NCBI RefSeq assembly: GCF_004297185.1 | Contig: NZ_PGCL01000002.1 | Coordinates: forward strand, 434,001 to 498,000 | Source: Methanofollis fontis | GTDB taxonomy: Archaea; Halobacteriota; Methanomicrobia; Methanomicrobiales; Methanofollaceae | Length of the DNA stretch: 64,000 nucleotides | Direction of reading: 5' to 3' | Part shown: positions 2,693-15,000 of the stretch, piece after piece | Numbering within the stretch: position 1 is the first letter of the stretch | How the letters are laid out: each line of letters begins with the position of its first letter | Notes under the pieces: generated by a model | Seen by the model: the letters and a program-made list of their open reading frames with translations, nothing else | Database searches by the model: none | What the model was told of the DNA's origin: nothing | Translations under genes and position numbers: made by a program

Positions 2693-3730
2693 TCAGACCG
2701 CAAACCTGAAGAGAAGCCATGCGATGATGAGCATGATCGCTGAAAACTTCAGCCCTGCAGTCGCGCGGGCCTCTCCCATCTGACCGGCAACCAGGCCCGA
2801 GAAAAAGCCCATGATCATTGCAGCATGAGAGAACAGCCTCTTATAGAGGTCCATGTTCACATTACCCATGAACTGGCTCCCTGCACCCGAGGCGGAGGCA
2901 GCAATCCCGGCCTCAGACATCGTGGTCAGAAATGTGGTCTCGAGCACCAGGATCACGAAGAGGAAAACAAAGAATGCAACAAGGATGATCACCTCATAGA
3001 TGAGCATATTGCTTGCCCGCTCGTTCTTAAGGCTGACAAACTCGTAACTGTCATGCGCCGCTGCACGGAGCACCTCGGAAACGTCACCGCCGGCCTTGCT
3101 CGCCTTGGCAATAAGGTCCACCGAACGCTCTGCAAGCGGAGTGCCGAGATTCTGCCCGAATCGATAGATTGCATCGACAAACGGGACACTCCACGACATA
3201 TCGACATCAAGTTTGCGGACAAAGGGGGTCAGGGTGCCGTACTCCCCCTTTGCCACAATATGGATGGCATTCGGGAGCGTCATACCCGAATCATTCATGC
3301 CCGCCACGTCCCTGAAGAAGTTCGGAAGTGCCTCTTCCAGATTTTTTTCGCGTTTTCCTTCCATGAAATCGAGGACGGCGAGCGGAATCACCGGAATGAG
3401 CACGGCGATCACGATGACGTCGTCGATCATGGTGGTGTTGAAGAGGGCCCACCAGCCATAGTCAACGATGATCACGGAAAAACCGACGATGAGAAATAAA
3501 AATGCCAGCGGCACTGTGGCGATGAGACTGTTGGTCGGTGTTTCTGTCAGGACCTCAAAGGGATGCTTGAGAAATCGCCCCAGACCCACCCGGGTCCGGC
3601 GCTGGGTTTCGATCTTCGAGACGATCTCCAGTTCATGGCGCTCATGCTCATCGAGGTCCACCGTTCCCACCGGGGTGTTTCCACGATCTCCCCTGTTGAG
3701 GAGATCGTCAATAAGAGTACCAAATCTCAT
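2693..3730 (-). CDS. Type II secretion F-domain membrane protein (TadC/FlaJ-like), second copy
   Basis: A polytopic platform protein of the type IV filament superfamily. It has 345 residues: an N-terminal cytoplasmic segment (~60), hydrophobic pairs around 70-125, a cytoplasmic T2SSF domain (~135-245, with GMTLPNAI and a helical GGDVSEVL stretch), and C-terminal membrane helices from ~245 to the end (IILVAFFVFLFVILVLE). It follows the other F-domain protein by three bases, so the two probably form a hetero-oligomeric platform beneath the ATPase. Whether it drives a pilus, an archaellum or secretion cannot be told; no archaellin or pilin gene lies nearby. Confidence 0.88.
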   Translation of the reverse strand: MRFGTLIDDLLNRGDRGNTPVGTVDLDEHERHELEIVSKIETQRRTRVGLGRFLKHPFEVLTETPTNSLIATVPLAFLFLIVGFSVIIVDYGWWALFNTTMIDDVIVIAVLIPVIPLAVLDFMEGKREKNLEEALPNFFRDVAGMNDSGMTLPNAIHIVAKGEYGTLTPFVRKLDVDMSWSVPFVDAIYRFGQNLGTPLAERSVDLIAKASKAGGDVSEVLRAAAHDSYEFVSLKNERASNMLIYEVIILVAFFVFLFVILVLETTFLTTMSEAGIAASASGAGSQFMGNVNMDLYKRLFSHAAMIMGFFSGLVAGQMGEARATAGLKFSAIMLIIAWLLFRFAV

Positions 3731-3733
3731 CTC

Positions 3734-4657
3734 TCACACCTCCGGGGTCATCGAACTGATCAGTATGATGAACATGATGCTCCCGAATGGCACGATCAGA
3801 TAGATGATGATAATCAGAAAGATCGGGTTGGCATCTCCCCCGATGATCGACATGATCGACTGCAGGATGATCAGGAAGAGGGTTCCGGCCACCATCGCCG
3901 TCACATAACTCTCGGCAATCAGACCCAGGGTTTCGAGAAAGGTCTTCTGCTGCTGGTGGTTCTCATTGGTGTACTGGACCGCCTTGTTCCTGAAATACTC
4001 AGTGAGGTTTGCACCAGAGGAGATCGTCGCCATCGCACCCTGCAAGAACTCTTTCATCCTCGGACTCGGTGTAAAGGTAGAGGATATCCGCATCGCCTCA
4101 ATGAGATCCCTGCCAAAAAGGTCGATCTCACGGGAGATATACCGGGCTTCTACAGCGGTTTCGCCATATATCGGGCTTTCTCCAAGGAGACGGAAGACCT
4201 CGGCCGGAGTGATGCCTGCCGTTGACATTGCGGTCACATAATTGATCGCATAGGGAAGCGTGGCGTCGATATTCCGCCGCCTGTTGCCGGCCAGCACCTT
4301 GGGATACATCATGAAGGAGAAGTAGGTGATGCCGCCAAAGACCAGGAGGGAAAAAACGAAGACAAATGTCGTTCCAATCAGGAGCTTGAAGTCGGAGAGG
4401 GCAACAAGAAAACCGGGAACGGCACCATGATATGAGATCATCCCCGGGATATCCAGAAAGAATGTGAGCATCCCGAGCAATAAGGCCGTCACACATCCGA
4501 CAAGCAGTGACGAGAGATAGGCCGTGGAGAGGTAGGCCTCAAAGGGGGTCTTCATGCGGGCCTGCATCAGATCGCTCCTTAGTTCGACATATTCCTCCCG
4601 TTTGCCCTTTGCCCTCTGGCCAAGAAGGCCGAAACTAAAGCGTTCAAAACTATTCAT
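3734..4657 (-). CDS. Type II secretion F-domain membrane protein (TadB/FlaJ-like), first copy
   Basis: A 307-residue paralogue of the next gene, predicted to anchor the filament ATPase in the cytoplasmic membrane. Hydrophobic helices lie near residues 45-75 and 90-120. A T2SSF domain follows (RNIDATLPYAINYVTAMSTAG, then EAMRISSTFTPSP), then helices near the C-terminus (LIIIIYLIVPFGSIMFIIL). The ATG at 4657 overlaps the ATPase stop by 8 bases (ATGAATAG). A longer reading to 4690 is possible but would overlap the ATPase gene more. Confidence 0.87.
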   Translation of the reverse strand: MNSFERFSFGLLGQRAKGKREEYVELRSDLMQARMKTPFEAYLSTAYLSSLLVGCVTALLLGMLTFFLDIPGMISYHGAVPGFLVALSDFKLLIGTTFVFVFSLLVFGGITYFSFMMYPKVLAGNRRRNIDATLPYAINYVTAMSTAGITPAEVFRLLGESPIYGETAVEARYISREIDLFGRDLIEAMRISSTFTPSPRMKEFLQGAMATISSGANLTEYFRNKAVQYTNENHQQQKTFLETLGLIAESYVTAMVAGTLFLIILQSIMSIIGGDANPIFLIIIIYLIVPFGSIMFIILISSMTPEV

Positions 4658-7313
4658 AGAGATCACCCCGCACGACCTCCATGACCGCATCGGGGTCGCG
4701 GAAGTAGGAGATCAGCATCTTTGAGACATCACGGTAGTGACGGATCTTCTTGATTCGCATCCATTCAAGAATTTCCTGGCGCCTTTTTAGCTCCTCTCGC
4801 ATTCTTGTCTCACTCCAGCCACGGATTTCCATGATAGCCTCCAGAATGTACGACTTCCCGGAATACCTGATATCGTCGGATGCCTGATGCCAGGAGAAGA
4901 CCTCATTGGTGATCAGTTCGTTTGTCCGGGGATCAATATCCAGGATCTCAATGATCTGTTTGTTTCTCCGGATCCGCTGCCCCCCGACACGCGCCTGCTG
5001 CTGGACGCAGACCAGATTGAGGGCGTTGAGCATGTTTCGCGGGACGTTCAGGGGAGGGTTCTCGAGTCGGTGAACAACCGATGCCACCGAATCGGCGTGC
5101 ATTGTTGCATACGTGACGTGGCCGGTGGACATCGCCTGGAAGAGCGTCTGTGCCTCCTTGCCCCTGACCTCACCGACCAGTATGTACTCGGGGCGCTGAC
5201 GGAGGGCCGCCCTGAGCAGTTCGTACATGTCAATCTCGCCCTTTCCACCGGTGTCGAATGAATCACGCGTCACCGAGGGGATCCAGTTCGGATGGGGCAG
5301 TTTCAGTTCACGGGTGTCCTCAAGGGAGACGATCTTCGCCTGCGGCGGAATGAACAGGGAGATGGCATTGAGTGCAGTGGTCTTTCCAGAAGCTGTCCCT
5401 CCGGCAAATATGGCTGAGTTCCCGGCCTCCACCGCAAGCCACAGGAAGGCAATGGAGAGGGGCGAGAAGGTGCCCCACTCGATCATATCGGTCGGCGTGA
5501 TGGGTTCGTCCTTGAACTTCCGGATCGTGAAGGTCGAACCATGTGCGGTCACCTCGCGGCCAAGCGTCATCTGGATACGGGAACCGTCCGACATTGTGGC
5601 ATCGAGCATCGGTTCTGCGATTGAGATGTACTTGCCTGCACGCTGTGCGAGCTTGGTGACAAACGAATCGAGTTCGACGGCATCGGTGTACATCAGGTTG
5701 GTCTTGATCGACTCATATCCCGAGTGGAAGATGAAGATCGGGTTGTTCAGCCCATCACAGGAAATATCCTCGATATACTTGTCATGCATCACGGCATCGA
5801 TCAGGCCGTCACCGAGGAAGTCGCGCTCGATTGCATAGAGGATCTTCTCTCTGGTGAGTGGAGAGAGCGAGATACCATAATCAGCAATAATTTCGTCGGA
5901 AAATGAACGGAGAATACGTTTCGATTCTGAACGGGAGATATCCTTCGTGTTCACGTCCAGACGTTCGAACAGGCGCTCCTTGATCTCGTCGAGCAGTTCG
6001 GATTCGGCGTCGGTGATCTCCGGTTCGAGCACCTCGTAGGAGTATTCATGGGTGGCATTGTCATAGATGATTCGTACATATGCATAGGGTTCGTTGACAG
6101 GGTAGAGTTCTACCTCCTCAACACCGGGATCTGGAGTGAAGGCGAGGTCGACAAGGGGGCCATGGATCACCGGGTTGTATTCATCGACAGTGTGACGGAA
6201 CCGGGAGATAATGCCTAATTTTCCGAGAATTCCACCCTTTTCCGGACCCTCTCTCCCGAGTACCACTTCACGGGCGTCTTCGGCAATACTGGGGAATGAA
6301 TCCCTCCATATCCCATCAATCTCCTGAGGAAGACCATTCACTCCAGACGAGTGGGCCTGAGATCTGAACTCAAATGCAAGATCCTCAACATCAAAGGTTG
6401 CTGCCTTCGGGAGAATGAGATCTGAGAAGGAATTGAGGTCTTCGGCATCGGTAATGCCCGCATCCACATTCCCCTGAGGATTGTCCGACGTTTCGCCCTC
6501 AGACCATCGCGTCCGCCGGCTCATAGCATGTGTTGCTGGGGGCACAGTGGGCTGAACGGGCTCGCACCCATACCCGGGCATTGCATCGGCATCCTCCTGG
6601 ATGCTATCATCCGGGACTGTTCTACCCTGGATCGTCTCGATTTCTGGAATGGACTGGCTGAGCGCCGGAATTCCGTCCATTTCCCTGAAAGCATCACTCT
6701 TTCCCGAAAAAAGTTCATCAACAACTGACTGCAACTCAGCAAGATTTCTGGGGTCCAGGACCGGTTCATCATTTTCGTGGGCAGAGAGCGCCGTCTCACG
6801 AATAATGCCCCCGGCATCCGCCCCATCATCGGGAGATGCGTCATCCCCAAACAACAGTGTGGGGGACTGTTCCCCATCACCAGCATCCGCCCCATCATCG
6901 GGAGATGTGCCATCCCCAAACAACAGCGTGGGGGACTGTTCCCCATCACCAGCATCAGCCCCATCATCGGGAGATGCGTCATCCCCAAACAACAGTGTGG
7001 GAGGCTGTTCCCCATCACCAGCATCAGCCCCATCGTCGGGAGATGCGTCATCCAGGGACAATGGAGAGGGGATTTTTTCCTCGCTCCCGCCATCGTCCAG
7101 AACCGGGCTCTGCCTGACGTCCCGGATCAGATTGCTGAGATCGAGACCGCCCTTTTTTCCCACCATCGATCTGAGCGATTCAAATTCGTCAGCGTGGTCA
7201 GGTTGGACCGTAACTTCAGCACCGTTCTCGTCGTCCGGATCACTGCTGCCGCGCCCGTTCATCTGCTGAAGGATGTCATGCAGCCGATTTTTTTTTAGCG
7301 TGTCCTTATTCAT
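4650..7313 (-). CDS. Type II/IV secretion ATPase (TadA/FlaI-like) with a long repetitive N-terminal arm
   Basis: A hexameric motor ATPase of the type IV filament superfamily. The 887 residues exceed the ~500 usual for archaeal FlaI/TadA. Residues ~1-380 are an acidic, low-complexity arm with a 23-residue repeat (about 83-168). The rest is a standard N1/N2 plus ATPase module: Walker A GGTASGKTT (~638-646), the Asp box SLEDTREL, Walker B ILVGEVRG (~710-718) and the His box TMHADS. The ATG at 7313 overlaps the upstream stop by 8 bases. Downstream are two F-domain membrane proteins, its expected partners. The arm could tether regulators such as the MinD or roadblock proteins encoded nearby (inference). 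Confidence 0.93.
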   Translation of the reverse strand: MNKDTLKKNRLHDILQQMNGRGSSDPDDENGAEVTVQPDHADEFESLRSMVGKKGGLDLSNLIRDVRQSPVLDDGGSEEKIPSPLSLDDASPDDGADAGDGEQPPTLLFGDDASPDDGADAGDGEQSPTLLFGDGTSPDDGADAGDGEQSPTLLFGDDASPDDGADAGGIIRETALSAHENDEPVLDPRNLAELQSVVDELFSGKSDAFREMDGIPALSQSIPEIETIQGRTVPDDSIQEDADAMPGYGCEPVQPTVPPATHAMSRRTRWSEGETSDNPQGNVDAGITDAEDLNSFSDLILPKAATFDVEDLAFEFRSQAHSSGVNGLPQEIDGIWRDSFPSIAEDAREVVLGREGPEKGGILGKLGIISRFRHTVDEYNPVIHGPLVDLAFTPDPGVEEVELYPVNEPYAYVRIIYDNATHEYSYEVLEPEITDAESELLDEIKERLFERLDVNTKDISRSESKRILRSFSDEIIADYGISLSPLTREKILYAIERDFLGDGLIDAVMHDKYIEDISCDGLNNPIFIFHSGYESIKTNLMYTDAVELDSFVTKLAQRAGKYISIAEPMLDATMSDGSRIQMTLGREVTAHGSTFTIRKFKDEPITPTDMIEWGTFSPLSIAFLWLAVEAGNSAIFAGGTASGKTTALNAISLFIPPQAKIVSLEDTRELKLPHPNWIPSVTRDSFDTGGKGEIDMYELLRAALRQRPEYILVGEVRGKEAQTLFQAMSTGHVTYATMHADSVASVVHRLENPPLNVPRNMLNALNLVCVQQQARVGGQRIRRNKQIIEILDIDPRTNELITNEVFSWHQASDDIRYSGKSYILEAIMEIRGWSETRMREELKRRQEILEWMRIKKIRHYRDVSKMLISYFRDPDAVMEVVRGDLYE
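6808..7065 (-). repeat. In-frame 69-bp tandem repeat in the ATPase gene
   Basis: Three nearly identical 69-base units start at 6831, 6900 and 6969, with partial units on each side. They encode a 23-residue acidic unit of the form DDASPDDGADAGDGEQ-P-TLLFG. Near-identity at the DNA level points to recent expansion by slippage or recombination, so copy number probably varies between strains. Confidence 0.93.
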
Positions 7314-7932
7314 CTGCCAAACCACCCAGATCAATCACAAGTTCACTTTTTTTTCCATTGAAATCAACAAGGAACGTATAGACCTCACGTGCCCGATCAA
7401 TCATCAGCACATCATAATGCCCGTTCAGGAGACGGAATGAGACTTTTCCATCTCCCGTCGTCACATCGCTCGCGATCACATGACGCCCCTTCCGCATCGA
7501 TACCCGGACACCGGACTGCGGACGATCGTCCCGTACTATATCAATGGAGAGTACACCAGGAGATTTTCGTTTTTCTCCTATTTCCGGGATATCGGCGGGG
7601 AGTTGATGGGGAAAGTGCCCCTTGTTGAAAACCCTGCAATGAGAAACCACGATGTCGACGGCCCGCCGATCGACACCGTAGAGATCATATTCATCGTTGT
7701 CGGTTATTTTGAGGACAGCAGAATCACCGAAGAGCGCTCCTTTCTCGTCCCTGAAGATCGCACCGGTTGGCTCTCCGCCAGAAAAAAGGATGACCGAACT
7801 TTTTGAACTGTCGACAAACACGCCAACGGAACCGTCCCGTGAACCTGCCACCCTTGACATCTCAAAATAGGGGAATGATCCGAGATAGCGCGATCTGCTG
7901 AGAATCTCATTTATGATCTCCATTATCTCCAT
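7306..7932 (-). CDS. Uncharacterised two-domain protein (VLF-G-P domain plus beta-sandwich)
   Basis: 208 residues, no named family recognised. Around residues 20-75 it has the pattern G.VGVFV...SVILFSGGEPTGAIF, which recurs in two proteins of the upstream operon and resembles the small regulatory domain of DUF4388/PATAN proteins (weak analogy). Residues ~125-205 look like a carboxypeptidase-regulatory/Ig-like beta-sandwich (SGVRVSMRKG, GDGKVSFRLLNGHYDVLM). There is no signal peptide, so it is probably cytoplasmic. The ATG at 7932 follows a GGGGGA ribosome site; an upstream start at 7989 is less likely. It sits between MinD and the filament ATPase. Confidence 0.65.
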   Translation of the reverse strand: MEIMEIINEILSRSRYLGSFPYFEMSRVAGSRDGSVGVFVDSSKSSVILFSGGEPTGAIFRDEKGALFGDSAVLKITDNDEYDLYGVDRRAVDIVVSHCRVFNKGHFPHQLPADIPEIGEKRKSPGVLSIDIVRDDRPQSGVRVSMRKGRHVIASDVTTGDGKVSFRLLNGHYDVLMIDRAREVYTFLVDFNGKKSELVIDLGGLADE

Positions 7933-8021
7933 GATTCGTCCCCCGGAACCTCTCACCAACACAGACAGATCAGGTTGACCCACCCGCAAAAACCCGGAAA
8001 CGGGTTTTAACCGTTTCCAGA

Positions 8022-8813
8022 TCAGCGTGCTCCGCCAAAGAGCGTGTGAGCAAGCCTGTCAATGAAATTTTGTTTCCTCTCCTCGGTCTCCTCTTCATAC
8101 TGCATCCCGGCGATGTCCGCGGCGATTCGCCTGAAGGCGCGTGAGGACTCCGATGCCGGATACTTGATGACTACCGGCGTCTTGTAGGCGGTCGATCTCC
8201 GCACGTTGGGGTCTTCAGGGATCATGTCGATCACCCGCACGCCAAGCACGTCCTCGACAGAATGCCGTCTGATTTCGGTGTTTTCCATCCCCGATCGATT
8301 GATGATCGCACCATAGACCTTGCCCCCGACCATCTCCGTCAGGATTTTCGTCTTCAGAGCGTCGGCCATCGAAGAGAGTTCCGGGTTCACCACAAGGATC
8401 ACCTCATCCGAGATGGCAAGTGCCACCACACCATCTTTGCTGATCCCGGCAGCGGCGTCGACAAGGAGGTAGTCACACCGGTCAATCAGTTCCCGCATCA
8501 CATCCCGGAGACGATCGGGGTCCGAGTTCTGAAAGCCCTGGAGTGAGATGCCGCTTGGCACCACTTTGACGCCATTGGGCCCCTCATATATTGCATCCTC
8601 AACCTTCGCCTTGCCGGCAAGCACTTCATGAAGTGTGACCGGTGCGTCTTCAAGCCCGAGCACCAGACCCAGATTCGCCATCCCGATATCCGCATCGAGA
8701 ATATAGGTTTCTTTGCCGAGTTGGGCGAGAGATGTCCCGAGGTTAACGGTTACCGTCGTCTTGCCGGTACCCCCTTTCCCGGATGCGATTGTAAATGCCC
8801 TGATCAATCCCAC
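8022..8813 (-). CDS. minD: MinD/ParA-family ATPase
   Basis: A 263-residue deviant-Walker P-loop ATPase (GKGGTGKTT, residues 12-20; switch-like LLVDAAAGI). MinD/ParA/FlhG proteins dimerise on ATP and position division, chromosome or surface structures. The C-terminal ~25 residues (RKQNFIDRLAHTLFGGAR) could form an amphipathic membrane-targeting helix. It opens the filament-machine operon from its own promoter, so positioning of that machine is the most natural role, in analogy with FlhG (inference). It starts at GTG 8813. Confidence 0.92.
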   Translation of the reverse strand: MGLIRAFTIASGKGGTGKTTVTVNLGTSLAQLGKETYILDADIGMANLGLVLGLEDAPVTLHEVLAGKAKVEDAIYEGPNGVKVVPSGISLQGFQNSDPDRLRDVMRELIDRCDYLLVDAAAGISKDGVVALAISDEVILVVNPELSSMADALKTKILTEMVGGKVYGAIINRSGMENTEIRRHSVEDVLGVRVIDMIPEDPNVRRSTAYKTPVVIKYPASESSRAFRRIAADIAGMQYEEETEERKQNFIDRLAHTLFGGAR

Positions 8814-8842
8814 ACCTTCTACTCCATTGATTGTGAACTATG

Positions 8843-8851
8843 GTATTTAAA
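8843..8851 (-). promoter_or_regulatory. TATA box for the minD-filament ATPase operon
   Basis: It reads TTTAAATAC on the minus strand, about 30-38 bases before the minD start, in a 116-base AT-rich gap separating the two collinear operons. Confidence 0.6.
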
Positions 8852-8929
8852 CATTTTGAAATCATAGATGGCAATTAGAAGAGGTTAAACAGTCATTTAA
8901 GGCAAGAAATCGAGAAAAATGAATATGAA

Positions 8930-9526
8930 CTACTGTTCGTCCCGGGTCTCGTCAACGATCAGATGGTCCATCTGAAGTTCTTTCAAGAGTGCCGAGGCAT
9001 CTGCCTCGAAATTTTCCGAGAGTTTCTTGAGTGACTCAATGGAAACCTGATCGAGAACCTGTTTTCGAACCCGACCCTGAGCGGTTACCGACTTCCCTTC
9101 CCCAACCGGATCGTCGCCGGCTTCAACCGCCTGGACCACCCGTATCCGTGCGGCTCTGACACCCGCACCAACTTTCACCGGCTTTATTGTTGTCTTCCCC
9201 CCCTTTTCATCGCTCTCGCCCTCAACAACCCTCCACGCCTCATTGAAGAGGAGGAGGGCATCCACCTCTCTGGCAGAGAAGGGGTGAAAATCTGTACAGG
9301 CCTCCGCCGTATCCCCTTCTATCCGTTTCAGGGCCTCGCTTCCAGCGCTCTGCGTCGAGATTTCAGCACAGAGCGGCTTGCCTGAACGAAAAAGAACTGA
9401 TCCTTTTCGATCTCTGGTTTTCCAGAGGAGGGCGCCGGTGAATCCGGTCGTCCGGCAGGATTCGACTGCCTCTGAAAGAGGACAGGTGAGGGATTTCTCC
9501 GGGGTGCCGGTCTTTGGAAAGTGCAT
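8930..9526 (-). CDS. Uncharacterised protein with the shared VLF-G-P domain
   Basis: 198 residues, no named family recognised. Residues ~25-75 (GFTGALLWKTRDRKGSVLF then SGKPLCAEI, then GSEALKRI) follow the same layout as domains in the proteins at 9527-10216 and 7306-7932. The middle is charged and basic. The C-terminus (~150-198) is helical (SIESLKKLSENF, ASALLKELQMDHLI). It is the last gene of the hydrogenase operon, directly abutting the preceding stop. Presumably a cytoplasmic regulator or adaptor. Confidence 0.6.
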   Translation of the reverse strand: MHFPKTGTPEKSLTCPLSEAVESCRTTGFTGALLWKTRDRKGSVLFRSGKPLCAEISTQSAGSEALKRIEGDTAEACTDFHPFSAREVDALLLFNEAWRVVEGESDEKGGKTTIKPVKVGAGVRAARIRVVQAVEAGDDPVGEGKSVTAQGRVRKQVLDQVSIESLKKLSENFEADASALLKELQMDHLIVDETRDEQ

Positions 9527-10216
9527 CTATCCATCCCACCTGATGCTGCGCAGTGCAACCCGTATCAGACCGAGGTTTGCATTCGATTCGGCCAGAACAC
9601 AGAGGGAGAGATCACCGAAGGGGGCGATGATCAGTTTCCCGCCCGGCGTTTCGAGGATGATCTGATCGAGGTCGCCGGTCTCCATATCACAGGCAATCCG
9701 GGATCCCGCTCTGAGCAGATCTTCTGCAACTGCAGCAATCCGGTCAAAATCAGCAGCACCGGCAGATTGAACGGCAAAACCTTCATAAAATGCAGAAACA
9801 GCGATCACACCAGGCTGGGAGAGGATCAGATTGAGTGAGCCTTCATTGAGGGCGGGTACACCCACATCACCATCAACACCCTCGTCCACAGGCACCGGAG
9901 TAGCGTGTTCGGAGATCAAATAACCCATCGAACGGCACCGCCCGACCGCCTCCTCAAACTCATCAGGGTCGTACCGCCCGAGAATACAGGAGGGGGCCGG
10001 TTCTGCAAACATGAGCTCCAGTGCTTCCTGACCGACAATCTCTTCAGAACCTCCGTTATACCAGGCCGCTATAGGCCGACCCTCTTCAGAGAGGACAAAA
10101 CCCTCGACACCTTCAGACTGGATCCATACAACTGCACAAAAGGCATCAGTAAATGGAAGGACCTCCTCAAGAGGGGCCTTCATGCTCCCGAATTTTTTTC
10201 CCTCCGGCAATTTCAT
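9527..10216 (-). CDS. Protein with VLF-G-P domain and C-terminal roadblock/LC7 domain
   Basis: 229 residues. The N-terminal half has the shared small domain (EGFVLSEEGRPIAAWYN, then GQEALELMF). Residues ~125-229 fit roadblock/LC7: LILSQPGVIAVSAFYEGFAV, then a helix, then GGKLIIAPFGDLSLCVLAE and a final helix (LGLIRVALRSI). Roadblock proteins form dimers that bind small GTPases or act as scaffolds, as MglB does in bacterial polarity. The ATG at 10216 is one base after the preceding stop; a TTG at 10231 would overlap it. It is a second roadblock in the operon, suggesting a heterodimer with the protein at 10218-10571. Confidence 0.75.
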   Translation of the reverse strand: MKLPEGKKFGSMKAPLEEVLPFTDAFCAVVWIQSEGVEGFVLSEEGRPIAAWYNGGSEEIVGQEALELMFAEPAPSCILGRYDPDEFEEAVGRCRSMGYLISEHATPVPVDEGVDGDVGVPALNEGSLNLILSQPGVIAVSAFYEGFAVQSAGAADFDRIAAVAEDLLRAGSRIACDMETGDLDQIILETPGGKLIIAPFGDLSLCVLAESNANLGLIRVALRSIRWDG

Positions 10217-10217
10217 G

Positions 10218-10571
10218 TTATAGCGCCGCAATAATTCGATCCTTATTCTTTTTCAGTTCATACCGTATCCTGCCGATGTTGACGCCGTCGTTGGCAACAA
10301 TGGCAATCATCTCATCCTCTGAGAGTGGCGAGAGAAGGATAGGACCATTCTCCAGTTCAACCAGCATCTGATTGAGATAACCCTTGCCGAGTTCGGCGCC
10401 CATCGCCTCAGACGTACCCATGCCGGTGGATGCCATTGCACCCAGGGCATCGGTGTCGATATCGCCGGAAACGGCGTCCTCGATCACAAAACCGTCCCTT
10501 CCAACGACAACAGCCGCGGTGACGCCGTCGAGCCTGAGAAATTCCATTAATATCTGTTTGAGCATCTCCAT
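10218..10571 (-). CDS. Roadblock/LC7 domain protein
   Basis: A 117-residue single roadblock/LC7 domain: helix (LKQILMEFLRLDGV), strands (TAAVVVGRDGFVIED), central helix (ALGAMASTGMGTSEAMG), strands (MLVELENGPILLSPLSEDEMIAIVA) and terminal helix (NIGRIRYELKK). Such proteins regulate Ras-like GTPases or build dimeric scaffolds; no GTPase gene is visible here. Two bases separate it from the hydrogenase large subunit stop, so it is co-transcribed and probably co-expressed in fixed ratio with the hydrogenase. Confidence 0.88.
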   Translation of the reverse strand: MEMLKQILMEFLRLDGVTAAVVVGRDGFVIEDAVSGDIDTDALGAMASTGMGTSEAMGAELGKGYLNQMLVELENGPILLSPLSEDEMIAIVANDGVNIGRIRYELKKNKDRIIAAL

Positions 10572-10573
10572 TG

Positions 10574-11977
10574 TCAGTTCACCTCCCCTGACCCGAGCGG
10601 ATCATTGCCCTCCTGCTGTGGACGACGGAGATCGATCCGGATCGGCATCCGACCGAGGGCATGGGTTGCACAGGAGATGCATGGATCATAGGCACGGATG
10701 ACCGTTTCGATTCTGTTCGATGCGTCAGCCGTAAGTTCACCATTTTTCACTACTTTTTTTGCCACATCCTCTACGCCACGGTCCATTGCATAATTATTCT
10801 GGCAGGTGGCGACAATCAGGTTGCACCGTTCGATGATGCCGGCTTCATCCACCGAATAGTCATGGATGAGGGTGCCGCGAGGCGCCTCGATGATTCCCAC
10901 CCCCCGGCGGTTCACGACGCCATCGACCGGCGCTCTGATATCGTCACCCGTGATCATCGGGTCCTCCAGGAGGGCGACAGCGCGTTCACAGGCCGAGTAA
11001 AATTCGATATATCGGGCGACATTATAGGCAAGCGTTGCCTGCGTGAACCGACCGAAAACGGAACGATATTCTTCCAGCGCCGCATCGGCCTTCGGGGTGC
11101 CCATCCGATCGACGACATTCAAGCGGGCGAGCGGTCCGACACGGTATGCCTGACCCGAGGCGAGTCGGCAGAACTTCAGGTACGACCACTCTTCAGAGTA
11201 CTCCCTGATATGCCCGAGGTAATCCTCACCGGCAAACGACCCGATCTGCTGGCCTCCTTCATCGAGAAGCCTGACCTCGCCATCGCTGATCGCATGGGTG
11301 CCGCCGTCGGTCATGCCCATAAATGCCGTTTCAACGGCGCCAAACTCCATATCGACACCGTCCATCAGACTGCGTGCGATCTCCCATCCGTTTTCAGCGA
11401 TATCAAGCCCACTTCTTGCGGCATCGAGAAGTTCATCGCGCGCGGCAGGGGTGAGGGCCAGCGACATTCCGCCGGGTATGGCGTTGCTCGGATGTATCGG
11501 TTTTCCGCCGACCGCCTCGGTGATCCGCTGCCCGAGTTTTCTCACTTCGATCGCAGATTTTGCAATTTCCGGTGCCGTCCGGGCGATACCGATCACATTC
11601 CGCTCTTCCGCCGGCGCCTCCCCGAGCAGGAAGTCGGGTGCTGCGAGCATGAAGAAATGGAGGGCATGCGAGTGGATGAACTGTCCGGCCATCAGGAGCT
11701 GGCGCAATTTTTTTCCGGTTGCCGGGAGTTCGGCACCGAAGATCTGATCCGTCGCCTTTGCCGCTGCCACATGGTGCGATGTCGGACAGATCCCACAGAT
11801 TCTGGGGGTGATCCGCGGCGCCTCCTCAATGGCAGAACCGATCAGAAACTTTTCAAAACCACGGAGCTCGACGACGTTGAAGTGAGCGCGCTCCACGCCG
11901 CCGCTCTCATCGAGGTCGATCCTGACCTGTGCGTGCCCCTCGATCCGGGTCACCGGCGAGATGGTCAGGCGTGTCAT
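10574..11977 (-). CDS. [NiFe] hydrogenase large subunit, group 3 (MvhA/FrhA-like)
   Basis: 467 residues carrying the NiFe centre. The L1 motif is RICGICPTSHH with C61 and C64. The L2 motif is DPCISCATH with C433 and C436, followed by a 28-residue tail that may be removed on maturation. Length and motifs match F420-nonreducing hydrogenase MvhA. Unlike classical mvh operons there is no mvhD, and no maturation protease gene lies beside it. Neighbours are ferredoxin, V4R and roadblock genes, so its partners may differ from heterodisulfide reductase: it may feed a ferredoxin, or it may sense hydrogen. Confidence 0.93.
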   Translation of the reverse strand: MTRLTISPVTRIEGHAQVRIDLDESGGVERAHFNVVELRGFEKFLIGSAIEEAPRITPRICGICPTSHHVAAAKATDQIFGAELPATGKKLRQLLMAGQFIHSHALHFFMLAAPDFLLGEAPAEERNVIGIARTAPEIAKSAIEVRKLGQRITEAVGGKPIHPSNAIPGGMSLALTPAARDELLDAARSGLDIAENGWEIARSLMDGVDMEFGAVETAFMGMTDGGTHAISDGEVRLLDEGGQQIGSFAGEDYLGHIREYSEEWSYLKFCRLASGQAYRVGPLARLNVVDRMGTPKADAALEEYRSVFGRFTQATLAYNVARYIEFYSACERAVALLEDPMITGDDIRAPVDGVVNRRGVGIIEAPRGTLIHDYSVDEAGIIERCNLIVATCQNNYAMDRGVEDVAKKVVKNGELTADASNRIETVIRAYDPCISCATHALGRMPIRIDLRRPQQEGNDPLGSGEVN

Positions 11978-12891
11978 GCCTTCCCTCCCCGCACAAGGTC
12001 CCGGATCTTCGATATCTCTTTGTCCTCCATGATCAGGCTCCCGATTGTAAAGGGATACATGGTGTGTGCCACGTCGTAGAGCTGTTTTTCGACCTCTTTT
12101 TCAGGTGTGTCGGTGAGATCGGCGATCCGTCGGACCATCATGTTATGGATGTCCCTGCAGGGTTCCCTGAGTATGTCCAGCGAGGGACCGTTGCAGCCGT
12201 GACAGGGCACATTGTTCCGGGGGCAGGAGGCACCGCACCGCCCGAACGTCACCGGTCCAAGGCAGAGATATCCCTGACCAAGGAGACAGTGCTCACGGTC
12301 GGGGGTTCCCTCGTAACGGCGTTTCAGGTGCCAATTCTGCACGTCCCCCATCTTTCGGTCGCATTCAGAACATACCGATTTCTTCGAGAGTTCGATCGGA
12401 TCCCCCCGGACAAGAGCGGGGATGATGGTCCTGAGAAACTTCTCCTTGGGCGGACAACCGGTGACATAATAGTCCACCTTCACGAGATCTCCCACGGCAA
12501 ATGCCCGATAGAGGAAGGGCGGCACGTCGGTCGGGATGACATTGCCCTCATCAGCCGTTTCGACACCGCGGTAAACGCAGTTGAAGAGATCCTCCTGTTT
12601 TCCAAGCATCGAGAGGCCAGAAACCCCACCATAGCAGGCACAGGTGCCAAAGGCAACCAGTTTCTTCGCTCGCTTCCGGATCAGGTTCAAACGCTCTTCA
12701 TTCTCTTCATTCCTGACAGCACCAGTCACGAAGGCGATATCAATCCCCTCGGGAGGTTCTTTCACATCCATGATCACCGGCGAATACACGATATCGGCCT
12801 CGGCGATCACCTCAAGCAGCATCTCATGGAGATCAAGCACCGAGATCGTACAGCCGGAGCATCCTGCCAGTTCTTCAATTGCGATCTTCAT
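11974..12891 (-). CDS. [NiFe] hydrogenase small subunit (MvhG-like)
   Basis: 305 residues carrying the FeS relay from the NiFe site. Proximal cluster ligands lie in GCSGCTIS (C11, C14), FGTCACYGG and TGCPP. The C-terminal cluster-binding region runs CSECDRK, CLLGQGYLCLGP, CGASCP and PCHGCNGP. There is no Tat signal, as expected for cytoplasmic group 3 enzymes. The start at ATG 12891 is preferred over GTG 12900, which overlaps the preceding stop. It overlaps the large-subunit start by 4 bases. Confidence 0.93.
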   Translation of the reverse strand: MKIAIEELAGCSGCTISVLDLHEMLLEVIAEADIVYSPVIMDVKEPPEGIDIAFVTGAVRNEENEERLNLIRKRAKKLVAFGTCACYGGVSGLSMLGKQEDLFNCVYRGVETADEGNVIPTDVPPFLYRAFAVGDLVKVDYYVTGCPPKEKFLRTIIPALVRGDPIELSKKSVCSECDRKMGDVQNWHLKRRYEGTPDREHCLLGQGYLCLGPVTFGRCGASCPRNNVPCHGCNGPSLDILREPCRDIHNMMVRRIADLTDTPEKEVEKQLYDVAHTMYPFTIGSLIMEDKEISKIRDLVRGGKA

Positions 12892-12896
12892 GGCAA

Positions 12897-13460
12897 TCAC
12901 TTCAGGATCAGTTTCTTCAGGCAGGCATTGGGGCCCGTGTGCACGATCTCCAGCTTCGCCCTGCGCCCCGTGATCTCCTCGATGGCACCGACCACATACC
13001 CATAAAGGGTCTGACAGAGGGGACCGCCCTGATCCATGCCGTTTCTGCGGAGGGTTTGACGGACGATACAGTCGTGGAAGACAAGATAGATGAACGTCTC
13101 GTTATTCTCGGTGACGACATAATTCTCCTTGTCCTCCGGTTTCCAGAGTTCGAAGGTATACTGACCGTGGAGAATATACGAGAGTTCACGTAGCGCTTCC
13201 TCGATATCATCGATTTTCCGGAAATATTTCGCCACCTCATGACCGAATTTTTTTCCGGCCCGATAGGTTACGGCATTGGCTCCTCGCCCGGCGATCTCCT
13301 CAAGAGACTTGATGATCAGCCCGTTCATTTTCATGACTCCATGAAGGGTCTGTTCAAGGTCCTTGGGGCTGGGCGAACAGCTCATGGGGACATCCTCGGC
13401 GCGGAAGACAGTCCCTGTCTTGAACTGTTTGTTCATCTCTTCGACAGTCAATTCACCCAT
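12897..13460 (-). CDS. V4R-domain protein
   Basis: 187 residues. The C-terminal ~130 residues fit the V4R (4-vinyl reductase) domain, a small-molecule-binding fold also called hydrocarbon-binding. It keeps cysteines typical of V4R metal sites: DCIVRQ, GPLCQTLYG and NACLKK. The N-terminal ~50 residues are family-specific. The start codon overlaps the ferredoxin stop (TGATG). V4R domains usually act as sensor or adaptor modules, so within a hydrogenase operon it could sense a ligand or metal-redox state (inference). Alternative: an assembly factor. Confidence 0.78.
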   Translation of the reverse strand: MGELTVEEMNKQFKTGTVFRAEDVPMSCSPSPKDLEQTLHGVMKMNGLIIKSLEEIAGRGANAVTYRAGKKFGHEVAKYFRKIDDIEEALRELSYILHGQYTFELWKPEDKENYVVTENNETFIYLVFHDCIVRQTLRRNGMDQGGPLCQTLYGYVVGAIEEITGRRAKLEIVHTGPNACLKKLILK

Positions 13461-13705
13461 CAGATCACCCGGTTGATCATCTCGCAGACGCGAATGTCGA
13501 TATAATTCCTCTTCGACGGGTAGACGCCCCGGTGCTCGAGTGCCTGCGCCGGGCAGATCTCATGACACGAGAGGCAGCCCATGCAGTTCTCCGGGCGGAC
13601 CGGAACGCTGACCCCGTCCTTCATTTCATATACCCGCATCGGGCAGTCTTTGACACACAGACCACACCCATTGCAGGCAACAGGGTCTACAGAAATCTCT
13701 ATCAC
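13460..13705 (-). CDS. 2x[4Fe-4S] ferredoxin-type protein
   Basis: 81 residues with two cluster motifs: CNGCGLCVKDCPM (residues ~9-21) and CMGCLSCHEICPA (~41-53). A 30-residue C-terminal extension ends in CEMINRVI. It is the first gene of the hydrogenase operon, so it is the likely electron partner or tightly bound electron-transfer subunit of the hydrogenase. This takes the place where MvhD would be expected. Confidence 0.9.
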   Translation of the reverse strand: MIEISVDPVACNGCGLCVKDCPMRVYEMKDGVSVPVRPENCMGCLSCHEICPAQALEHRGVYPSKRNYIDIRVCEMINRVI

Positions 13706-13730
13706 TGAACATCACCAGACAGAATACAGG

Positions 13731-13741
13731 ATATACAATTT
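13731..13741 (-). promoter_or_regulatory. TATA box for the hydrogenase operon
   Basis: The plus strand reads GATATACAATT; the minus strand gives AATTGTATATC, about 26-36 bases before the ferredoxin ATG. The 109-base divergent region also holds AT-rich blocks suited to the plus-strand prepilin peptidase gene. Confidence 0.5.
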
Positions 13742-13814
13742 CTCCTATTTCACGATATTAAAATGTATTGAAAATCGTTAGAGTTAAAAACAACCTGAAA
13801 AATAGGAATTGTGG

Positions 13815-14612
13815 ATGAATATGCTTCCGCTCTGGATTGGAACGACGGCAGTCGCAATTACACTGCTCTATGCCTCATGGCTCGATCATCGGGACCGCCG
13901 GGTGCCGTTCAGGACATGGTACCCGATGCTTGCTGTTGCGGTGCCCTCGGTCTGCCTGTACTATGCAGGCATGCTGATGGAGGGAGAGACCCGGCTTGTA
14001 TTCTCCTATATTGCGCTCTCACTCATATTTTCAGGCATATTCTATCTCTTCGGCAGCCTCCACCTCTTCGGCGGGGCGGATGCATGGGCCCTCATCTTTC
14101 TCTCGGTCTGCATACCGGCATTCCCGATCACACCACTCTGGGGTGTGCCGACCTTCGGGTTCTTCCCGTTTTCGGTACTGGTCAATGCCCTTGTCCTGAA
14201 CCTTGCGGCACCGCCTGCCCTGTTCATATACAATCTCCTTCACGGCAACCGCGCCCCCTTCCCCTATATGTTCCTGGGCTATCCAGTAAAGGGGGCGGAG
14301 ATCCAGCGCCACTACGGTTTTGTCATGGAGGAGATCGAGGAGGAGGCAGATGGAAGCCTCTCCCGACACTTCCTCAGGATGAGGGACTCGTTGCGGCGGA
14401 CGGTGAGAGGCGGTGAACGGCGCATGTACACAAAGGATCTCAGGGAGCACCCGGAACGCTATACACAGGAACTGGCGCTCTACCGACGTTCAAAAACCGT
14501 CTGGATCTCATATGCGGTTCCATTCATCATCCCGATCACAGGCGGCCTCATTTCAGCACTGTTTATTGGCGATATATTCTATATGATCCTGCGGACAATC
14601 GCAGGAGTCTGA
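13815..14612 (+). CDS. Prepilin peptidase, A24 family (FlaK/PibD-like)
   Basis: A 265-residue aspartic membrane protease that trims class III signal peptides of pilins or archaellins. The first catalytic Asp lies in [11 protein letters not shown] (residues ~22-32) between hydrophobic segments. The second is in LFGGADAWA, where the usual GxGD reads GGAD. Hydrophobic helices fill residues ~1-160; a charged cytoplasmic loop (EEIEEEADG to about residue 220) precedes a C-terminal hydrophobic segment. The ATG at 13815 is chosen over TTG 13809. It diverges from the hydrogenase operon, so pilins are likely encoded elsewhere. Confidence 0.85.
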
Positions 14613-14617
14613 ACAGA

Positions 14618-14980
14618 GTGGACCTGAACTATACTCACGGACTGATCCCGGTCATCGTGCAGGAGGCGGAGACGGACGAGGTTCTGATGCTGGCATGGGC
14701 AAACGATGAGGCGTTACGGCTGACCCGGGAGAGCGGATTCGCCCATTACTGGTCGAGAAGCCGGCAGAAGATCTGGAAAAAGGGAGAGGAAAGCGGCAAT
14801 CTTCAGCGGGTGATCGAGATCAGGGTGGACTGCGATGCCGACACCCTCCTCTACCGGGTCGAGCAGAGGGGGGCGGCATGCCACACCGGCCATCACTCGT
14901 GTTTTTACCGGGACATCGAGGGGCGCGAGCTCACGGCCCGCCTCTTTGATCCGTCAGAAGTATATGCTAATAAGGGATAA
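14618..14980 (+). CDS. hisI: Phosphoribosyl-AMP cyclohydrolase
   Basis: A 120-residue enzyme opening the purine ring of phosphoribosyl-AMP, the third step of histidine synthesis. It shows [10 protein letters not shown], the SRSR(Q)[11 protein letters not shown] block, the Mg site [11 protein letters not shown], and zinc cysteines in [13 protein letters not shown]. Single-domain form without HisE. It starts at GTG 14618 with GGAG upstream, five bases after the peptidase stop. Confidence 0.96.
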
Positions 14981-14995
14981 AGACACGTAAAATAT

Positions 14996-15000
14996 GGTGA
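14996..15000 (+). promoter_or_regulatory. Ribosome binding site of the PIN-ATPase gene
   Basis: GGTGA, complementary to the 3' end of archaeal 16S rRNA, seven bases before the ATG at 15008; it fixes that start. Confidence 0.6.

Follow-up and report, generated by a model that had tools for sequence, protein, structure and literature searches.

A [NiFe]-hydrogenase lineage of methanogens linked to V4R, roadblock, MinD and pilus genes, and its possible role in response to H2 or redox state

Analysis of a 64,000-nucleotide stretch of the Methanofollis fontis genome (contig NZ_PGCL01000002.1, positions 434,001 to 498,000; hereafter the window) together with related genomes revealed that a minus-strand operon encodes a [NiFe] hydrogenase belonging to a lineage of its own, which is not a partner of heterodisulfide reductase (Hdr) by descent or by linkage and which is tied to genes for a V4R-fold protein, roadblock proteins, the ATPase MinD and a type IV pilus. 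The seven genes of the operon, encoding a ferredoxin (fd), the V4R-fold protein, the small and large hydrogenase subunits (hydS, hydL), two roadblock proteins (rob1, rob2) and an unnamed protein (gene 7), are packed with gaps or overlaps of only a few bases throughout, and a first-pass annotation of the sequence had given their coordinates, strand and order correctly (Table 1). The proposal that this hydrogenase is a dedicated H2- or redox-responsive module placed on a regulatory cluster of MinD, roadblock and type IV pilus proteins has, in our estimate, about an even chance of being right.

A hydrogenase lineage apart from Hdr-linked Mvh

A tree of 81 large subunits unites the proteins of this type (module proteins) from Methanomicrobiales and Methanocella in one clade (100/99), whereas the Hdr-linked enzyme of Methanocella clusters with the structurally known Mvh (93/91). 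Module proteins of two remoter families, f9 and f10, lie on long branches in that tree and are joined to the others only in the small-subunit tree, where a branch with support of 100/99 (100% of bootstraps) separates those of Methanomicrobiales, Methanocellales, f9 and f10 from the rest. The small subunits of the module also share two features that none of the Hdr-linked and bacterial proteins compared here has, a C-terminal tail and an insert that follows the last CxxC motif.

Gene linkage gives the same separation. Neither mvhD nor hdrA lies near any of 38 module loci, which together with the separate clade bears out the first-pass view that the operon is not Hdr-linked. The absence of mvhD from the operon, also remarked on there, was confirmed, and a search of the remaining genome placed mvhD within the run hdrCBA-mvhD-fmdDBAC (G000:C1:48033), away from the operon; hdrABC is thus present along with mvhD, and the operon enzyme is the only one of Mvh type in this genome. 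Methanocella paludicola and M. arvoryzae each harbor two VhuA-like enzymes, of which enzyme A is divergent from hdrCBA-mvhD-fmd and enzyme B is of the fd-V4R-roadblock-MinD type. Linkage to mvhD or hdr genes, for which the first-pass annotation had proposed to inspect relatives, does occur in bacteria (51 relatives of 41-48% identity, with an mvhD match in 41 and an hdrA match in 39) and in the second Methanocella hydrogenase, but in no orthologue.

The large subunit HydL retains the RIEGH and EAPRG motifs in addition to RICGIC and DPCISCATH, which had already been recognized as intact, and alignment of HydS with MvhG accounts for 12 of 12 cluster cysteines. Judged from sequence, catalysis by the hydrogenase is probable. 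The closest solved structures are HydL of 7t2r and the Methanothermococcus MvhA/MvhG pair; the curated cut-off of the NCBIfam VhuA model (800 bits) is reached neither by HydL (402 bits) nor by a true Methanocella Mvh (507 bits). The operon enzyme is like Mvh/Vhu (MvhAGD, the partner of HdrABC) in its nearest solved subunits (5odc, 9sw2), cluster set and active-site motifs, but differs in clade, in the missing mvhD/hdr linkage, in the small-subunit insert and tail, and in having V4R, roadblock and MinD genes as its partners. Past the last ligand motif, the large subunits of methanogens continue for 14-43 residues and those of three f9 relatives for 0. The f9 proteins (L195, L196, L200) have the last NiFe ligand motif, DPCLSCxxH, as their very C terminus and would thus need no maturation cleavage there. 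A gene for a hydrogenase maturation protease is found immediately upstream of a PATAN-like/minD/ferredoxin run in Methanoculleus sediminis (L043:5362-5841).

Orthologues of the operon hydrogenase have been described under another name. Memar_1007-1008 of Methanoculleus marisnigri, annotated as Mvh by Anderson 2009 (PMC2686161), and MCP_2492-2493, annotated as an Mvh isozyme in the M. paludicola genome paper (PMC3146512), are both of the module type, whereas these papers treat them as Hdr-partner Mvh; no mention of the V4R, roadblock and MinD setting of these genes was found in either. Our results call for a correction, in that the Methanoculleus "Mvh" and one of the two Methanocella "Mvh isozymes" belong outside the Hdr-partner lineage. 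Expression data for the module genes were not found in the literature, in which Memar_1007/1008 are named in one metagenome list.

The V4R-fold partner and exchange of inputs

Large subunits 65-80% identical to HydL are present in all genomes of Methanofollis and in most genomes of three further Methanomicrobiales families, and none of the module type was found in Methanoregulaceae (f5) or f6. Conservation of gene order across Methanomicrobiales, a check proposed with the first-pass annotation, proved to be deep: the order fd-v4r-hydS-hydL-rob1-rob2 is retained, wherever the contig permits, in 28 named contigs and in Methanocellales, the six-gene block spanning four Methanomicrobiales families and Methanocellales, with reduced forms in f9 and f10. 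Such synteny across dozens of species, which are not independent lineages, is far beyond chance. Syntenic orthologues of the ferredoxin occur in 26 named loci, and it has a C-terminal tail in common with its f9 and f10 relatives. The V4R-fold protein and Rob1 are among the best-conserved products, with identities between Methanofollis and Methanocella of ~65% and 63-65%, respectively, compared with 51-56% for the large subunit. None of 30 hydrogenase-negative genomes of Methanomicrobiales carries the V4R gene, including one that is 99% complete and from a positive genus (G031), while all six positive controls carry it. The V4R protein and the hydrogenase are thus gained and lost as a pair, and the V4R protein is the partner that tracks the hydrogenase. 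Remote V4R matches at three other loci (L199, L201, L202), near which no hydrogenase was found, were set aside.

Assignment of the gene 2 product to V4R comes from its predicted fold. At the Pfam V4R (PF02830) cut-off no match was obtained for any of 20 members of the family, the sole Pfam match of the operon protein being a weak one to ATC_hydrolase (E 0.021); an f9 homologue matches Pfam V4R at 1.1e-4 and 22.6 bits (cut-off 31). An AlphaFold2 (AF2) model based on 20 relatives, with a predicted local distance difference test (pLDDT) score of only 66, finds its best PDB matches in the V4R phenol-sensor domains of MopR, PoxR and DmpR (Foldseek probability 1.00; VIA Z ~10), followed by H-NOX, Bet3/TRAPP and the archaeal V4R protein MJ1460. 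The name V4R given by the first-pass annotation is accordingly right at the level of the modeled fold and is not supported by the Pfam model. Four residues, Cys131, Cys149, His174 and Cys180, do not vary among the methanogen proteins and are for the most part retained in f9 and f10, within a family signature that reads Cys-x-VRQT ... LC ... H-x-G-x-N-x-C-L-K. The same triple likeness to H-NOX, V4R and ATC hydrolase has been reported for the methanogen output domain MetOD1 by Galperin and co-workers (PMC5847659). The operon protein resembles this superfamily of MetOD1, V4R, H-NOX and TRAPP Bet3 in fold, Cys cluster and weak ATC_hydrolase matches, but its family is stand-alone, strictly hydrogenase-linked and marked by its own Cys/His signature.

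A different arrangement was found in Methanoregulaceae (M. boonei and two others), where genes for the same prepilin peptidase and ATPase flank p9, rob1, rob2, a PATAN-like gene and minD, with Rob1 76-79% identical to that of the operon. Ferredoxin, hydrogenase and the operon-family V4R protein are all lacking from this locus, which encodes instead a ~370-residue protein with two true V4R domains (84-91 bits). The roadblock/MinD/pilus part therefore constitutes a common chassis, and the hydrogenase-ferredoxin-V4R block behaves as one of at least two swappable inputs. This swap, which is comparative and not functional in kind, is the strongest argument for a sensory role of the hydrogenase. It also disposes of the earlier suggestion that the roadblock proteins take the place of MvhD, because they persist in these hydrogenase-free genomes and belong to the MinD/pilus cluster. 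Exchange of hydrogenase-V4R for double-V4R at one MinD/roadblock/pilus locus points to a modular signaling design that uses the same folds as eukaryotic TRAPP and Ragulator. In an M. boonei-type locus (L233:9578-10378), a REC-PAS response regulator lies between minD and the gene for the double-V4R protein.

Linkage to MinD and pilus genes and proposed function

The first-pass annotation had suggested a tie to a cell-surface or polarity apparatus, and the neighborhood is in keeping with this: minD, p9, a FlaI/PilB-type ATPase gene (pilB) and two TadC-like genes adjoin the operon downstream and a divergent prepilin peptidase gene adjoins it upstream, and the link to minD or pilB recurs in several lineages. 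In Methanomicrobiales and Methanocella, the flank for minD or pilB could be read at 22 loci, and in all 22 one or both of these genes lie within ~10 kb, with minD downstream in Methanofollis, L062 and Methanocella and upstream in Methanoculleus and L240. The f10 order is fd-v4r-hydS-hydL-pilB with minD divergent, hydL and pilB standing head-to-tail with an overlap of 4 bases, and the f10 ATPase is nearer to the window ATPase than to its same-genome paralogue (487 versus 432 bits). In f9 the genes run v4r-hydS-fd-hydL, and in L196 minD and rob1 follow at some distance. An orthologue of pilB is found beside hydL in L197, and others in hydrogenase-free relatives. Archaeal type IV pilus loci are known to include roadblock (arCOG02603) and FleN/MinD (arCOG00589) genes (PMC4858521), and the window resembles these loci in having both beside pilus ATPase and platform genes; that census, however, never mentions a hydrogenase. 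In Haloferax, MinD4 places archaella and chemosensory arrays (PMC11588486).

We propose that HydSL may oxidize H2 or equilibrate with it, that electrons would reach the operon ferredoxin by way of the three [4Fe-4S] clusters in HydS, and that the V4R protein could read the resulting redox state via its putative Cys/His site, perhaps by a change in bound metal or ligand. The signal would then be relayed through the roadblock/PATAN adaptors to MinD and/or the FlaI/PilB-type ATPase, and thereby influence whether a surface structure of pilus type is assembled and at which site, so that the hydrogenase would serve as a sensor or local redox switch and not as a bulk electron donor for heterodisulfide reduction. 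In this full form, a group-3-type archaeal H2 sensor, different from those known, that acts through ferredoxin, a metal-binding V4R protein and roadblock/PATAN proteins to make MinD-dependent placement or assembly of pili or allied machinery respond to H2 or redox state, the proposal is tentative, and we put its chances somewhat below even.

Absence of the C-terminal extension is a trait of regulatory hydrogenases. The f9 relatives share it with HupUV/HoxBC (group 2b), in which, as here, a hydrogenase is genetically tied to signaling proteins; in contrast, the operon enzyme is of group-3 type, with 7t2r HydL and MvhA as its best PDB relatives, its operon lacks a PAS histidine kinase, and the methanogen proteins do carry the extension. 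A possible parallel on the output side is phototaxis in cyanobacteria, where PilB1 is the proposed target of PixE, a PATAN regulator (PMC7690835). Both cases place PATAN-like proteins beside a PilB-type ATPase in a sensory locus, but in the operon the PATAN assignment is weak, a CheY domain is lacking, and the input would be H2 or redox state, not light.

Several observations weigh against a sensory role. The intact motifs, the C-terminal extension with its need for a protease, and the Methanoculleus protease gene also suit an ordinary catalytic hydrogenase, and neither a histidine kinase, including the PAS type, nor any other classical regulatory-hydrogenase partner was found among the window genes. 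The pilB orthologue lies away from the hydrogenase locus in Methanoculleus and Methanocella, and no roadblock gene was found near the f10 module in the short contigs seen. Moreover, rob1, minD and pilB also occur without hydrogenase, so the linkage could be historical.

The genome papers' assumption, that the module is the Mvh of these methanogens and feeds HdrABC via the unlinked mvhD or a sister complex, draws on the published annotations, on MvhA being among the closest solved large subunits, on the full set of MvhG cluster cysteines, and on a genome that has mvhD and hdrABC and no second Mvh-type enzyme. We nonetheless consider it unlikely, given the clade apart from Hdr-linked Mvh, the 38 loci without mvhD or hdrA, the strict pairing with V4R, and Methanocella, which has both types and in which only the other one adjoins hdr-mvhD. 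In 2021, Abdul Halim reportedly purified the Hdr of Methanoculleus thermophilus with formate dehydrogenase and no hydrogenase, which likewise speaks against this assumption. The M. thermophilus work is cited in PMC10579272 for a formate-linked route. The separate lineage agrees with the report that no hydrogenase is bound to Hdr in Methanoculleus, and favors the view that formate or F420 feeds Hdr there.

A soluble hydrogenase for anabolism or redox poise, either ferredoxin-reducing or H2-evolving and redox-balancing, with the V4R protein as an assembly or allosteric subunit and the minD and pilus neighbors incidental, would account for the intact catalytic centre, the nearby Methanoculleus protease gene, and a dedicated 2[4Fe-4S] ferredoxin encoded by the first gene or, in f9, between the subunits. 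Recurrence of minD and/or pilB at the locus across several gene orders and lineages, and the presence of a V4R sensor-type protein at the same site in hydrogenase-free relatives, make this explanation improbable as well. The head-to-tail overlap of hydL and pilB in f10 could also hint that the hydrogenase works physically with the surface filament, as it might in extracellular electron transfer linked to H2 or in the energetics of surface attachment, but the gene lists showed neither multihaem nor conductive-filament genes, Methanoculleus and Methanocella have pilB at another site, and all module proteins look cytoplasmic, which leaves this idea with very little probability. If the sensory proposal is correct, H2-eating methanogens would adjust the placement or deployment of their surface structures to H2, and the module would be a candidate for how H2-dependent archaea sense H2; we know of no archaeal H2 sensor.

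Gene calls and neighboring features

Table 1. Operon genes and adjoining features (window positions, unless a locus is named)
Feature	Position	Strand	Basis or remark
fd, 2[4Fe-4S] ferredoxin, operon gene 1	13460..13705	-	Fer4 (Pfam); GTG start
V4R-fold protein, 187 aa	12897..13460	-	AF2 model fold; co-occurrence with hydL; conserved cores
hydS, [NiFe]-hydrogenase small subunit, MvhG-like	11974..12900	-	Oxidored_q6 (Pfam); 5odc_E E=2.6e-69
hydL, [NiFe]-hydrogenase large subunit, MvhA-like	10574..11977	-	NiFeSe_Hases (Pfam); 5odc_F E=1.1e-123
rob1, Roadblock/LC7 protein	10218..10571	-	Robl_LC7 E=3.7e-16, 59 bits (cut-off 23)
rob2, PATAN-like N-terminal domain + roadblock domain	9527..10231	-	Robl_LC7 E=4e-8, 33 bits (cut-off 23)
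gene 7, unnamed PATAN/DUF4388-like protein (weak assignment)	8930..9526	-	DUF4388/DUF2226 matches of relatives; position
minD, archaeal MinD ATPase	8022..8813	-	TIGR01969 342 bits (cut-off 201.75)
p9, conserved uncharacterised protein before pilus ATPase	7306..7989	-	no Pfam family; syntenic with pilB across Methanomicrobiales
pilB, FlaI/PilB-type assembly ATPase	4650..7334	-	T2SSE + FlaI-like matches
TadC/FlaJ-like platform protein 1 (putative)	3734..4690	-	position + sequence character; open reading frame list
TadC/FlaJ-like platform protein 2 (putative)	2693..3730	-	position + sequence character; open reading frame list
archaeal prepilin peptidase, divergent, upstream of operon	13809..14612	+	Arc_PepC_II 2.5e-22, Peptidase_A24 7e-7; conserved flank
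membrane/roadblock-like protein before minD	L238:6888-7463, L240:6019-6543, L043:6591-7112		

Orthologue alignments favor later starts for two of the genes, hydS at 12891 rather than 12900 (orthologues begin MKIAIEEL) and rob2 at an ATG near ~10216 rather than at 10231. A Pfam scan assigned confident families to fd, hydS, hydL, rob1 and rob2 and none to genes 2 and 7, and an Rfam search of window positions 4000-15000 found no RNA elements. The AF2 model of Rob2 (pLDDT 85) has Asgard roadblock proteins, Ragulator and MglB as its top matches, and the N-terminal half of Rob2 matches the gene 7 protein by profile (95%). Relatives of gene 7, which has positional equivalents in other families, gave weak matches to DUF4388 (5.8e-4) and DUF2226 (4e-4), each in a single aligned relative; p9 was tried as a third PATAN protein and rejected (profile comparison probability 0.6%).

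No small GTPase of an MglA/MglB-type pair was found in the locus, the NTPases adjoining the operon being MinD and the assembly ATPase only. A TRAPP-like GTPase exchange role, considered since V4R and roadblock folds pair in TRAPP, was dropped because the locus has no GTPase. Upstream of minD in the window lies a TATA-like box of its own, and minD may therefore form a separate transcript. In several families the gene before minD encodes a protein with a single membrane segment at its N terminus and a C-terminal domain that looks roadblock-like by eye; for the two members compared with Pfam (L238, L043) there was no match. Some Methanomicrobiaceae carry a second, diverged rob1/rob2 pair divergently upstream of fd, near small membrane proteins (L038:5891-7329, L044:3964-5165). 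The N-terminal region of PilB (window 6600-7150) contains several near-identical repeats of ~24 residues, SPDDGADAGDGEQSPTLLFGD...

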